From: Chitinophaga filiformis
GTDB taxonomy: Bacteria; Bacteroidota; Bacteroidia; Chitinophagales; Chitinophagaceae
Assembly: GCF_023100805.1 (NCBI RefSeq)
Contig: NZ_CP095855.1
Span: 1,488,001 to 1,552,000 of the forward strand
Direction: 5' to 3'
DNA length: 64,000 nt
Part shown: positions 11,001 through 15,449 of the stretch, piece after piece
Position numbering within the stretch: the first letter of the stretch is position 1
How the letters are laid out: the number at the start of each line of letters is the position of its first letter
Notes under the pieces: generated by a model
Database searches by the model: none
What the model was told of the DNA's origin: nothing
What the model saw: the letters and a program-made list of their open reading frames with translations, nothing else
Translations under genes and position numbers: made by a program

Positions 11001-11702
11001 ATGGAAGAACGTAAACCAAAAATATTGCTGGCGGAAGATGATACCAACCTGGGAATGGTGTTGAAGAATTATCTTGAACTGAATGACTATGACGTAGAGT
11101 TGTGCCGCGATGGTATACTTGCGCTGGCAGCCTTCAGACGCGAGAAATTTGATATCTGCCTGCTGGACATCATGATGCCCAATATGGATGGTTTTAAGCT
11201 GGCAGAGGAGATCCGTGACGTGGATCCCGACATTCCGCTGTTCTTCCTCTCTGCCAAAACAATGAAGGAAGATGTGATCCATGGTTATAAACTGGGCGCT
11301 GACGACTATATAGCAAAACCTTTCGACAGCGAACTGCTGCTGCTGAAAATAAAGGCTATCCTGAAGCGTAACCAGGAGCTCAACAGTAAAGAAGAAGAGC
11401 AGCATGAATTCAGGATCGGGCGTTATGCATTCAATGCCCGCCTGCGTACCCTGACAAGAGACGGTGACTCCCATACATTGTCTCCTAAAGAAAACGAACT
11501 GCTGCGCATGCTGTGCGAGCACAAGAATGACCTGCTGCCGAGAGAACTGGCCCTGAAAAAGATCTGGGGTAGTGATACCTATTTCAATGGACGTAGTATG
11601 GATGTATACATCGCCAAACTCCGCAAATACCTGAAGGAAGATCCGGATATCGAGATTGTCAATATTCACGGCAACGGCTTCCGCCTGGTGGTAAAGGACT
11701 GA
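11001..11702 (+). CDS. OmpR-family DNA-binding response regulator (RprY-like, orphan)
   Basis: The 233-residue protein has a receiver domain (AEDD at 11-14, phosphoacceptor Asp56 in CLLDIMMPNMDG, LSAKT and YIAKPF) and a winged-helix domain with LSPKENELLRMLCEH and SMDVYIAKLRKYL. It closely resembles the regulator at 7635-8339 in layout. The start is set by the promoter at 10947-10975. No kinase gene is adjacent; the following pair at 11804 has its own kinase and a hairpin lies between. Confidence 0.92.
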   Translation: MEERKPKILLAEDDTNLGMVLKNYLELNDYDVELCRDGILALAAFRREKFDICLLDIMMPNMDGFKLAEEIRDVDPDIPLFFLSAKTMKEDVIHGYKLGADDYIAKPFDSELLLLKIKAILKRNQELNSKEEEQHEFRIGRYAFNARLRTLTRDGDSHTLSPKENELLRMLCEHKNDLLPRELALKKIWGSDTYFNGRSMDVYIAKLRKYLKEDPDIEIVNIHGNGFRLVVKD

Positions 11703-11803: not shown

Positions 11804-12508
11804 ATGAAACTTTTACTTATTGAAGATGAACCATCAGTGGTGTCGTTCATACGCCGTTATCTTTCAGAAGCGGGGTACGATGTAAGCGTAGCACTGGATG
11901 GCCAGTCTGGGCTGCAAATGGCCACGGAGCATAGTTTTCAGCTGATCATCCTGGATGTGATGCTGCCCGGTATGAATGGAATGGCGGTTTGCAAGGCATT
12001 GCGCAAACAGAACGATACAACACCCATTCTCATGCTCACTGCCCTTGGCTCAACGGAGAATGTGGTGGCCGGCCTGGACAGCGGTGCAGACGACTATCTT
12101 GTCAAACCTTTCAAACAGGCCGAATTACTGGCGCGCATACGCTCACTGCTGCGCCGTAATCCTGATAACGCCGCCAATACAACAACCAATAATCATCATA
12201 ATGCCAATGTGCTGAAGGTTGCCGATCTTGAACTGGACCTGAATACCAAAAGCGCCAGCCGTTATGGCGAAAACATTGTGCTTACAGCTACTGAATACAG
12301 GCTGCTGGAATATATGATGAGAAACCCCCGCCGCGTGCTCTCCAGGATGGAAATACTGGAAAACGTATGGGGTATTGATTTTAATATGAACACCAAAGTA
12401 GTGGACGTTTATGTCAACTATCTGCGGAAGAAGGTAAACCGTAAAGAACAACCTGCCCTGATCCAGACTGTAGTAGGAATGGGTTATATGCTGAAAGAAG
12501 AAGAATGA
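11804..12508 (+). CDS. OmpR-family response regulator of a two-component pair
   Basis: The 234-residue protein carries a receiver (EDE at 7-9, phosphoacceptor Asp51 in LDVMLPGMNG, LTALGS, YLVKPF) and a winged-helix output domain with LTATEYRLLEYMMRNPRRVLSRMEIL and VDVYVNYLRKKV. The class resembles CzcR/ArlR-type regulators. Its stop overlaps the kinase start by 4 nt (ATGA), so the two are translated together. The heptad array directly after the kinase gene is a candidate target. Confidence 0.94.
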   Translation: MKLLLIEDEPSVVSFIRRYLSEAGYDVSVALDGQSGLQMATEHSFQLIILDVMLPGMNGMAVCKALRKQNDTTPILMLTALGSTENVVAGLDSGADDYLVKPFKQAELLARIRSLLRRNPDNAANTTTNNHHNANVLKVADLELDLNTKSASRYGENIVLTATEYRLLEYMMRNPRRVLSRMEILENVWGIDFNMNTKVVDVYVNYLRKKVNRKEQPALIQTVVGMGYMLKEEE

Positions 12509-13878
12509 CCATACGTAACAAAATATTAGGTTTATTCATCGCCCTCACCATCTCCATTATCCTGATGATGGCGGCTTTCGCCTATTTCCTTGTTAGTCGT
12601 CAGTCTTTCGACGACTTCTATAAACGGCTGGAGATCCGCGCATATATTGCCGCCAGGGCCAGGTTTACACAAGACAAAGACAATAGCGCTGCTTATGCCG
12701 AGATCCGGAACGAGCACCTGGAGCGCCTGCCTCACGAAAAAGAATATTTCCTGAGAATAGATACAACCGGTAGCCCTGCTCCTGATCCGGGCCTTAAGCC
12801 CCTGCGCCAGAGCTTCTATGAAAAGGTAAAGGCCCAGGGAAAGGCTACTTACCGCCACAGGGATATTTTTTACCAGGGAGTATTGTTTGAGAACGAAGCG
12901 GGGAAATATGTTGTAATAGTTTCTGCCAATAATGAATACGGTCAGCACTTTATGACCGAACTGAGAAGAACCCTCATTATCTGCATGGCCATTGCTGCAG
13001 TAGTGATCGTTACTGCCGGGCTTTTCTTTTCCCGCTATATCCTGCAGCCCGTCCGCCAGATCACTTCCCGGGTAAAAGATATCCGGGCACATAACCTGCA
13101 CCTGCGGCTGGATACACCAACCAGTAAAGATGAAATGACAGAACTGGCTCAGACCTTCAACAATATGCTGGACCGCCTGGAGACAGCCTTCGAAACACAG
13201 AACAACTTCGTAAGTAATGCCTCCCACGAGCTGGGCACTCCGCTCACGGCTATTATCGGGGAGGCAGAACTGGCGCTGAACAGGCAACGCAATGAAGAGC
13301 ATTACCGGCAATCACTATCAGTGATACTGAAAGAGGCCGAAAGACTTGAACATATCACCAAAAGTTTGTTGAGCCTTGCCCAGACAGGCTTTGACGGAAA
13401 ACGGCAACAGCTGGAGAAAATACGTACAGATGAACTGATCTTTACAGTAAAAGAAACAATAGATCGTATCAACCCCGACAACAAGGTGGCCATTGACTAT
13501 ACCATGCTGCCTGAAGAGGAAGATAAGCTCGTCATATTAGGGAATGCGCAACTATTGCAACTGGCGTTAAGTAATATTGTACAGAATGCCTGTAAATACT
13601 CAGACAACCGCCCGGCATCTGTGGCCCTGGCTGCTACAGACAAGAACATTATCATTATTATCAAAGACAATGGTATAGGTATCCCTGCCCAGGATATGCC
13701 TTTTATTTACGATCCTTTTTACCGTGCTTCCAACACCGGCGGATATAAAGGCTATGGTATAGGCCTGCCGCTGGCACGCAATATTATACGCCTGCATGGA
13801 GGAAATATCATCGTCAATAGTAAAGAGAACCAGGGAACGGAGATCAGGATTGTATTGCCGACATATATTCGTTCATAA
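12505..13878 (+). CDS. Sensor histidine kinase, partner of the upstream regulator
   Basis: The 457-residue protein has two membrane segments (about 8-30 and 156-176) around a periplasmic sensor of about 125 residues. These are followed by a HAMP linker, a HisKA domain with phospho-acceptor His241 in NASHELGTPLTAI, and a HATPase domain with the N box (NIVQNACKY), G1 (IKDNGIGI) and G2 (YGIGLPLARNI). The F-box-like PFIYDPFYRA is present. The periplasmic part has no recognised sensory fold; the signal is unknown. It overlaps the regulator gene by 4 nt. Confidence 0.94.
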   Translation: MTIRNKILGLFIALTISIILMMAAFAYFLVSRQSFDDFYKRLEIRAYIAARARFTQDKDNSAAYAEIRNEHLERLPHEKEYFLRIDTTGSPAPDPGLKPLRQSFYEKVKAQGKATYRHRDIFYQGVLFENEAGKYVVIVSANNEYGQHFMTELRRTLIICMAIAAVVIVTAGLFFSRYILQPVRQITSRVKDIRAHNLHLRLDTPTSKDEMTELAQTFNNMLDRLETAFETQNNFVSNASHELGTPLTAIIGEAELALNRQRNEEHYRQSLSVILKEAERLEHITKSLLSLAQTGFDGKRQQLEKIRTDELIFTVKETIDRINPDNKVAIDYTMLPEEEDKLVILGNAQLLQLALSNIVQNACKYSDNRPASVALAATDKNIIIIIKDNGIGIPAQDMPFIYDPFYRASNTGGYKGYGIGLPLARNIIRLHGGNIIVNSKENQGTEIRIVLPTYIRS

Positions 13879-13888
13879 TAATGTTTCA

Positions 13889-13958
13889 TTCTTACCGTTT
13901 TCTTACCTGTTTTTGACCTCATTCTTACACCAACGGTGTTTTCTTACTGCATTTTTAC
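13889..13958 (+). promoter_or_regulatory. Array of TTCTTAC heptads in 11-bp phase, candidate response regulator site
   Basis: TTCTTAC occurs at 13889, 13900 and 13922, with the near-copy TTTTGAC at 13911, so four heptads start exactly 11 bp apart. A second block has TTCTTAC at 13941 and TTTTTAC at 13952, again 11 bp apart. OmpR/PhoB-type regulators bind such head-to-tail repeats with a period of about 11 bp. The array starts 11 bp after the kinase stop and lies 55-124 bp upstream of the -7 element of the Usp-like gene. Regulation by the adjacent pair is inferred. Confidence 0.6.
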
Positions 13959-14012
13959 CCTTTTTTTAAGTTGCTTTTATGCGGAGCTTACCTGTTCCTA
14001 ACCCCGGGCTGG

Positions 14013-14020
14013 TAGTTTTG
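14013..14020 (+). promoter_or_regulatory. Promoter of the Usp-like gene, -7 element
   Basis: TAGTTTTG matches TAnnTTTG and ends 17 nt before the ATG at 14038. There is no good -33 element, which fits a promoter that needs an activator bound upstream. Confidence 0.55.
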
Positions 14021-14037: not shown

Positions 14038-14517
14038 ATGAAGCATGTATTGATTCCTACAGATTTTTCTATCCGGTCTCTTCGCGTAGTGCACGGTGTG
14101 GTTGAGCGCTTTGGTGGTGAACCACTTAATATTGTCCTGATGCACGCAGTAGAAATGCCAGGTTCTATCATGGATCTGATGATGCTGTCAAGAAGGTCAT
14201 CACACTATGATCTCATTACTGCCGACTATAAAGATGCCTGCGAGATCATAAAAAATAAATACGCCTCCGTTATTCAATCGTTGAAAACTGAATTTCTGGT
14301 AGGTAATGGTAAAGGTCTGTTCAGAAACTTCCTCTTATATCATAACATAGACGTGATAGCCTGTGCCGCAAAGGATGAATTCCGCAAAGCAGGCCCTCAC
14401 AGCTACAATCCGGCAGAATTGATCAGGAAGTGCAAATACCCGGTACATCATATAGCGCTGACGCCAAGGAAGGAGAAATACCTGGTGTCTGCCATGTCTG
14501 AATTGTTTGAAGTATAG
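14038..14517 (+). CDS. Universal stress protein-like protein
   Basis: The 159-residue protein begins MKHVLIPTDFSIRSLRVVHGVVER, as in Usp/UspA-fold proteins, and has the middle strand LNIVLMHAVEMP. The C-terminal half (DVIACAAKDEFRKAG and the final VHHIALTP strand) fits the fold, but the ATP-binding G-2x-G-9x-G motif is not evident. The open frame starts at a TTG at 14020 that overlaps the promoter, so the ATG at 14038 is used. It is followed after 20 bp by the bestrophin gene, probably as one operon. Confidence 0.75.
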   Translation: MKHVLIPTDFSIRSLRVVHGVVERFGGEPLNIVLMHAVEMPGSIMDLMMLSRRSSHYDLITADYKDACEIIKNKYASVIQSLKTEFLVGNGKGLFRNFLLYHNIDVIACAAKDEFRKAGPHSYNPAELIRKCKYPVHHIALTPRKEKYLVSAMSELFEV

Positions 14518-14537: not shown

Positions 14538-15449
14538 ATGTTATTGAAGAAGAATATCCCGTTCAAATATGTTTTCGGGAAAATAAAGTATGAGGTTTTG
14601 CTCGTAGCGGTATATACGCTGGTGGTGGTATTACTGCACGACAGGTTTAATCTGAAGCACATGGCTATTCCATTGTCTGTGCCGATGATCATGGGGACTG
14701 TTATTTCGCTGTTGCTGGCATTCCGTTCCAATCAGGCGTATGACCGCTGGTGGGAGGCAAGAACAGTGTGGGGCGCTATTGTAAATGATTCGCGTACGTT
14801 TTCAAGGCAGGTGCTTTCATTCATAGATCATGCTTACGATGGAGAAGAGGTAGGGCATTTCAGGGAACGTATGGTACGCAGGCAGATCGCCTGGTGTTAT
14901 GCGCTCGGCCAGTCCCTGCGTGGACTGGATGGCAGGGAAGGGCTTGACAGGCACATCCCCAAGCGGGAGATATCGCATGTATGCAGGTATACCAATATAC
15001 CCATGGCGTTGCTGGAATTGCATGCCCGCGATCTTAATTATGCATTGAAACAGGGATGGATCAATGAATACCAGCAGGTACAGCTGGACCAGACCCTTAG
15101 CCGTTTGTGCGATGCAATGGGTAAGTGCGAGCGTATCAAGAATACCGTCTTCCCCGCTACTTATAGTCTTTACATCCATTTCGCCCTGAACTTTTTCATC
15201 CTGCTGTTGCCATTTGCCCTGATAGAATATTTCGGGTTTGTGGAAGTGCCTATGGTAGTAGCGATTGCCGCTTCTTTCCTGCTGATAGAAAAAATGGCGA
15301 TCCACCTGCAGGATCCGTTCGACAATAAGCCTACTGATACGCCGATGACGGCAATATCGAGGAATATTGAGCGTGACCTGAAACAGATGCTGAACGATCA
15401 TCACTTACCTGAAACTGTTAACGCAGAATACAAATTCTATGTGATGTAA
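14538..15449 (+). CDS. Bestrophin family (YneE/UPF0187) ion channel protein
   Basis: The 303-residue membrane protein has the bacterial bestrophin pattern: early helices (VLLVAVYTLVVVLLHD and the PLSVPMIMGTVISLLLAFR block), the signature SNQAYDRWWEARTVWGAIVNDSR (about residues 64-86), a central helical region, two more helices near residues 215-250, and the conserved tail IHLQDPFDNKPTDTPM. Bacterial homologues form pentameric cation channels in the inner membrane. It shares an operon with the Usp-like gene, downstream of the heptad array. Confidence 0.92.
   Translation: MLLKKNIPFKYVFGKIKYEVLLVAVYTLVVVLLHDRFNLKHMAIPLSVPMIMGTVISLLLAFRSNQAYDRWWEARTVWGAIVNDSRTFSRQVLSFIDHAYDGEEVGHFRERMVRRQIAWCYALGQSLRGLDGREGLDRHIPKREISHVCRYTNIPMALLELHARDLNYALKQGWINEYQQVQLDQTLSRLCDAMGKCERIKNTVFPATYSLYIHFALNFFILLLPFALIEYFGFVEVPMVVAIAASFLLIEKMAIHLQDPFDNKPTDTPMTAISRNIERDLKQMLNDHHLPETVNAEYKFYVM

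Follow-up and report, generated by a model that had tools for sequence, protein, structure and literature searches.

The window analysed here, 64,000 nucleotides at positions 1488001-1552000 of the single-contig Chitinophaga filiformis genome, carries four forward-strand genes encoding a response regulator (positions 11804 to 12508), a sensor histidine kinase (12505 to 13878), a protein with a predicted Usp fold (14038 to 14517, with an alternative GTG start at 14020), and a bestrophin (14538 to 15449). The regulator matched the receiver and Trans_reg_C domains (PF00072, 108.6 bits; PF00486, 91.5 bits), in line with an earlier, sequence-only reading that had placed it in the OmpR/PhoB family, and its recognition helix contains Lys198. 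Its scores were below the cut-offs of the PhoB equivalogs (TIGR02154, 210.6 against 296.2 bits; NF053854, 186 against 270 bits) and of the heavy-metal CztR/SilR/CopR model (TIGR01387, 226.3 against 279.2 bits). The kinase matched only HAMP, HisKA, and HATPase_c; the top NCBIfam models for both proteins were heavy-metal ones, each under its cut-off (221 of 292.55 bits for the kinase). Directly upstream, at 11001-11702, lies a gene for an RprY-like regulator (305.9 bits against a cut-off of 370), which was 93-100% identical in the related loci L010-L024 and more conserved there than the adjacent two-component pair. The bestrophin matched PF25539 at 224.8 bits (cut-off 27), the top PDB bestrophin gave an E-value of 1.3e-33, and the gene is predicted to encode an ion channel. 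The Usp-fold protein had no Pfam or NCBIfam match at E<=0.001. Its AlphaFold2 model had a mean pLDDT of 83.1, and the top Foldseek matches were PH0823 and UspA proteins (best E 1.7e-7, TM about 0.4-0.6), with the KdpD Usp domain (PDB 7ji4) also among them; the nearest solved structures were mostly universal stress proteins, suggesting a Usp fold for the modelled protein. ATP-binding universal stress proteins have the motif GxxGx9G(S/T), which by eye is absent from the window protein.

Ten 7-bp units, spanning 13889-14002, lie head-to-tail on the forward strand between the kinase and Usp-fold genes. The distal block (13889-13928) consists of four heptads starting at 13889, 13900, 13911, and 13922, and the proximal block (13941-14002) of six starting at 13941, 13952, 13963, 13974, 13985, and 13996; both keep an 11-bp step, and the jump from one block to the other is 19 bp. 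TTCTTAC is found exactly at 13889, 13900, 13922, and 13941, with the variants TTTTGAC at 13911 and TTTTTAC at 13952. These six units had been recognized in the sequence-only reading and were present exactly as claimed, but the array extends beyond them: four more units in phase with the second block (TTTTTAA at 13963, CTTTTAT at 13974, AGCTTAC at 13985, and TCCTAAC at 13996, with 4 or 5 of 7 letters matching) make ten rather than six. The six units nearest the promoter form the core of the array, and only two of these had been noted at first. Head-to-tail units on an 11-bp step are the arrangement of an OmpR/PhoB-type direct-repeat operator.

Downstream of the array, the -7 promoter element TAGTTTTG (14013 to 14020, forward strand) fits the consensus TAnnTTTG, which the accessible part of PMC9723704 reports for flavobacteria. 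The distance of 55-124 bp originally given between repeats and -7 element was correct for the portion of the array then known. Between the final heptad, TCCTAAC at 13996-14002, and the -7 element the distance is 17 bp from the start of the heptad and 10 bp from its end; a proximal unit ending about 10 bp before the -10/-7 element is the PhoB-like class II geometry. By eye, no good -33 element is left upstream of TAGTTTTG, as the first description of a poor -33 element had it. A small hairpin with a T tail lies between the two blocks (13927 to 13939, forward strand; one found, 0.6 expected from shuffles), and its palindrome was kept, by eye, in only some relatives. This hairpin is perhaps a terminator of the kinase operon that pushed the heptad blocks apart.

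The array was compared with the remainder of the 8.26-Mb genome and with random sequence. TTCTTACnnnnTTCTTAC occurred once without mismatch, at the window array, and nine times with at most one mismatch, two of them at the array. The triple TTCTTAC-TTCTTAC-TTTTTAC, with at most three mismatches, was found at four places in the genome, three in the array and one weak site at 1920780; its reversed control gave one match. A looser TTCTWAY scan was not discriminating at three mismatches, because it gave 13 matches (three at the array) against 27 for the reversed control. Neither scan yielded another convincing array in the window genome. A larger regulon in this genome was rejected, the extra site at 1920780 being weak and equalled by the single match of the reversed control, and a site at 6975665 was dismissed as an unrelated simple 11-bp tandem repeat. 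Within the window, the six-step lattice scored best against TTCTTAC at 13941 (32) and at 13889 (31), compared with 23 for the other strand; no score above 26 was seen in 200 windows simulated with a first-order Markov model and scored on both strands. Among 16 aligned sequences, conservation was 0.915 in the proximal heptad columns and 0.661 in the spacer columns; the true phase gave the largest heptad-spacer difference of all eleven phases, and none of 20,000 column permutations gave one as large.

The sequence-only reading had proposed searching related genomes for the array, and this check was carried out; the idea withstood it, since the heptads proved to be conserved among close relatives. 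Relatives of the Usp-fold gene were found at 16 loci, of which one (L025, a 42-residue match) was excluded and 15 (L010-L024) were kept. In all 15 of these Chitinophaga-type loci, which carry the whole gene, the array precedes the usp and bestrophin genes, and all six proximal units are present. The distal block was, by judgement, comparable in 11 of the 16 aligned sequences, shortened in L017 and L018, and absent in L019, L021, and L022.

At the family level, a bestrophin search of 195 genomes matched 96, and the 43 best loci besides the window's own and the 17 next best were examined. The regulator and kinase genes lay beside bestrophin in 41 of the 43 best loci (36 in the window order with a usp match, one divergent, and four without a usp match). 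L073 retains the kinase, and the start of the contig cuts the locus beyond it. In L087 (G171), a usp-like frame, an array at the 17-bp distance (score 32), and bestrophin lie at the start of a contig, and no kinase was found in the approximately 550 bp of contig before the array. The regulator was found in none of the 17 next-best loci, and a kinase match only in L119 (23%); the array was absent from 16 of the 17 loci of this next bestrophin clade, which is without the two-component genes. At the class level, 27 of 395 genomes matched in the bestrophin search. The best 13 of 20 loci, all from other families, comprised seven with regulator, kinase, and usp, three with regulator and kinase, two with regulator and usp (L280 and L281, where bestrophin was also matched and no kinase match lay within 8 kb), and one with usp alone (L274, with neither a regulator nor a kinase match). 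None of the three genes was found in the remaining seven loci (43-48% identical). The lattice score before usp was at least 30 in six of the seven class-level loci with all three genes and 29 in L271; in L279-L283, scores in the gap before bestrophin were 26-29, and the arrays there are therefore weak or rearranged. The array, regulator, kinase, Usp-fold protein, and bestrophin thus recur together in Chitinophaga, in its family, and in some other families of the class.

Each locus was also tested with the motif TTCTWAY against 300 dinucleotide shuffles; some species are present in more than one locus set. A value of p<=0.01 was reached in 85 of 89 loci scored as linked (from L060-L119 and L186-L233), in all 15 of L010-L024, and in one (L106) of 17 loci scored as unlinked (L087 and L103-L118). 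Four linked loci fell short of this: L119, linked by the 23% kinase match only, L091, L094, and L102 (p 0.07). In L091 and L094 usp was unmatched, so these loci were scored before bestrophin; the arrays in their kinase-bestrophin gaps score 33 and 34. L087 was placed among the unlinked loci because its usp likewise gave no match. A -7-like element, in places degenerate, was present in 83 of the 89 linked loci, and in 81 of these 83 the lattice stood in the same phase to it (17 bp modulo 11). Counting all 83, 69 loci have a distance of exactly 17 bp and 11 loci one of 39 bp. When the strict TAnnTTTG was required, the phase was the same in 48 of 49 loci. In L010-L024 it was the same in 12 of 15, and the best chains of the other three were the distal block or a locally shifted one.

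Gene order varied around the array. The two-component genes were divergent, with the array in between, in 12 of 46 loci of one bestrophin set and in L062. In L193 and L194 the end of the kinase gene is 2.6 kb upstream, and usp still follows directly on the array. The array therefore belongs with usp and bestrophin, keeping its place beside them in either of these arrangements of the two-component genes. Across 79 Chitinophaga genomes (bestrophin at E<=1e-90, regulator at E<=1e-70), bestrophin was found in 66 and the regulator in 68: both genes were present in 66, neither in 11, the regulator alone in two (G225 and G239), and bestrophin alone in none. In G239, which is 80% complete, the bestrophin of locus L229 is frame-broken into several pieces, and the array, usp, and regulator remain. 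The genus was scanned with the triple pattern at no more than two mismatches, a site counting as at the locus when it lay within 800 bp upstream of bestrophin on the same strand. Such sites were present at the bestrophin locus in 50 of the 66 genomes with both genes, and the pattern was found in none of the 11 genomes with neither gene. Of all 92 sites, 87 were at the locus and five elsewhere; the reversed control gave seven. The arrays of the other 16 genomes score 32-36, and none of 300 shuffles scored as high.

The heptad type changed together with one residue of the recognition helix. The regulator and bestrophin occurred together at 115 loci, 105 of which had a lattice score of at least 30; the ten low-scoring loci, all with Asn198, were dropped beforehand, and in two of them (L091 and L283) at least half of the few units that match well have a terminal C. 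Lys198 was found in all 64 loci where C is the last letter of at least half of the well-matching heptads (TTCTTAC-like), and Asn198 in all 41 loci where it is the last letter of no more than a third (TTCTAAT-like); residue 198 was the only fully separating column among 234. At heptad position 5, T was found in 0.73 of units with Lys and A in 0.60 with Asn. Loci at odds with taxonomy keep to this pairing: L193, L194, and L202 belong to the genus and are Asn/TTCTAAT, and L081 and L096 lie outside it and are Lys/TTCTTAC. In a kinase and bestrophin tree of 90 rows, from which the regulator was left out, both traits switch twice, and one switch is forced by supported branches. We rejected this co-switch as statistical proof, which would need more independent events than the tree holds; because only two changes are needed, one of them firmly supported, it is without statistical power and stands as a consistent correlation. 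In the accessible part of PMC4832192, the residues of the Mycobacterium tuberculosis PhoP recognition helix that contact bases are Asn212, Val213, Glu215, Ser216, Tyr217, and Tyr220, and Asn212 touches the central bases of the motif. Judged by residue order, residue 198 would correspond to the Asn212 described there.

We looked for the same type of array elsewhere. In the 200 bp before the regulator of tandem loci, scores equalled by at most 1 of 100 shuffles were seen in 8 of 102 sequences on the forward strand and in 3 of 102 on the reverse strand; four of the forward cases (L065, L076, L077, and L078) are close relatives in the kinase and bestrophin tree, and none was in the window. Autoregulation by this type of array was therefore rejected as a general feature and is possible in some lineages. 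In 28 other genomes of the family, 21 sites in 13 genomes matched a TTCTWAY triple with no more than one mismatch (control, one); 14 were at the bestrophin locus and seven elsewhere. Of these seven, three are next to a gene for an ABC-transmembrane protein. Two more (L294 in G185 and L311 in G055) are flanked on one side by a different kinase, 33-37% identical to that of the window, and on the other by a frame that is TolC-like by eye. Given this neighbourhood, the same operator code may be read by related regulators as well, and sister systems outside Chitinophaga probably share it. TTCTWAY arrays beside the ABC-transmembrane protein were seen in L234, L235, and L238 and, with distant homologues, in L303, L305, and L308. 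The L235 copy (337 aa) matches the ABC transmembrane family only, with no ATPase; an HlyD-like frame follows, by eye, in L234 and L235, and in L305 a fourth unit lies 17 bp before TATCTTGC. This gene was rejected as a second regulon member: only 3 of 12 Chitinophaga ABC loci score, the L234 heptads point away from the operon, and the genus scan had five off-locus sites against seven control matches. As a second target, it is a possible, weak lead.

The array, its geometry, its conservation, its linkage to the genes, and the helix/motif co-switch can be read directly from the DNA. On these sequences, we consider it highly probable that usp and bestrophin are activated by the regulator, which would bind the array head-to-tail and act as a class II activator. 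The array would serve the usp-bestrophin operon as its operator and as the upstream part of its promoter. The kinase from the gene immediately before the array would phosphorylate its partner regulator, which would then place one DNA-binding domain on each 7-bp unit, across 4-bp spacers and head-to-tail, occupying the six promoter-nearest units and, in the window lineage, four more upstream. That the neighbouring regulator reads the array is suggested by the residue-198 co-switch and by linkage. The promoter-nearest unit, ending 10 bp before the -7 element, may substitute for the -33 element; the bound regulator would therefore recruit RNA polymerase as PhoB does, and the 10-bp gap argues for activation rather than repression. 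By analogy, the array would be filled from dimers, with the dimer next to the -7 element supplying the missing -33 contact. Strong and weak units alternate in several divergent loci, which hints at a 22-bp dimer period. The switch should be steep if many units are filled cooperatively, and an envelope signal would in this way turn on the Usp-fold protein and the bestrophin channel together. Binding, activation, cooperativity, the signal, and the role of the channel are what we infer from the locus.

Three other functions of the array were considered alongside chance. The same regulator might bind the array and mainly repress or roadblock usp and bestrophin, since a long array over the -33 position could exclude RNA polymerase; we regard this as unlikely, given the fixed spacing to the -7 element, the common phase in 81 of 83 loci, the 10-bp gap of PhoB boxes in the accessible part of PMC1906773, and, by eye, the lack of a good -33 element for unaided polymerase. 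It is also quite improbable that another OmpR/PhoB-family regulator of the same cell is the main reader. A regulator search of the window genome did yield 123 candidate stretches, 36 of which were scored, and similar arrays adjoin a different kinase in G055 and G185; against this stand the co-occurrence of array, regulator, and bestrophin, their adjacency, and the co-switch at residue 198.

We give very little credence to the idea that the repeats function at the RNA level, or that they terminate the kinase operon or serve it as a spacer. The weak terminator-like hairpin between the blocks would fit such a role, but the array also occurs at loci with a divergent kinase or one 2.6 kb distant, and it lies upstream of the -7 element with its spacing fixed to the promoter. 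Chance AT-rich repetition, or a functionless tandem duplication, has a negligible probability: although the units are T-rich and a simple 11-bp tandem repeat does exist at 6975665 of the window genome (G000), the spacers diverge while the heptads stay, the shuffles and simulations speak against it, and the array is conserved in other families of the class. Activation by the neighbouring regulator remains the preferred reading.

Direct-repeat operators of OmpR/PhoB-family regulators are well known, and bacterial bestrophins serve as structural models, their role in bacteria being unclear. Among the matches listed in the open-access literature, as far as their accessible text goes, we found no description of a two-component system tied to bestrophin. 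The array described here is a long and conserved one; its proposed mechanism is not exotic, but the gene set and the putative operator-code switch merit attention. A fuller proposal seems to us evenly balanced: that several families of the class possess a two-component circuit dedicated to a Usp-bestrophin pair, nearly single-target in the case of Chitinophaga, and that its Lys198 or Asn198 and the whole row of six or more operator units (TTCTTAC or TTCTAAT) were rewritten together. If true, it would provide a natural operator-code switch and the first regulatory handle on the purpose of a bacterial bestrophin. A conserved unit of kinase, regulator, operator, and channel would tell when the cell wants the channel; identifying the signal of the kinase would therefore name the relevant stress. 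The locus set also offers a natural test of how a single helix residue in an OmpR/PhoB-family regulator determines the operator code, and of the reason for retaining six to ten units in an operator although a dimer needs only two.

Several known systems resemble the one proposed here. KdpDE is a two-component system controlling a potassium pump, with a Usp domain in the circuit. It is thus similar to the window system in the two-component control of an ion transporter and the involvement of a Usp domain; in contrast, the Usp-fold protein of the window is a protein of its own, whose gene adjoins that of the channel. The PHO boxes of Streptomyces PhoP consist of multiple 11-nt direct repeat units, and they share these 11-nt repeats with the window array, whereas the motif, phylum, and targets differ. 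CusRS/CopRS-type heavy-metal systems are nearest by NCBIfam models, below the cut-off, and the window target is a bestrophin, not an efflux pump. According to the accessible part of PMC1906773, the PhoB boxes of Escherichia coli are 8-bp direct repeats with a 3-bp linker located 10 bp upstream of the -10 element. As far as that text describes them, they are like the window array in having an OmpR/PhoB-family regulator, tandem repeats on an 11-bp step, and a 10-bp gap; PhoB differs in its motif, its phosphate genes, its larger regulon, and a -10 element where the window has the Bacteroidota -7 element. M. tuberculosis PhoP binds as a tandem dimer to 7-bp units with strict 4-bp spacers, and in vitro three and four tandem units were bound more tightly than two, as the accessible part of PMC4832192 reports. 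Its motif there, TCACAGC, and its targets are different, and the window-type arrays have six to ten units.
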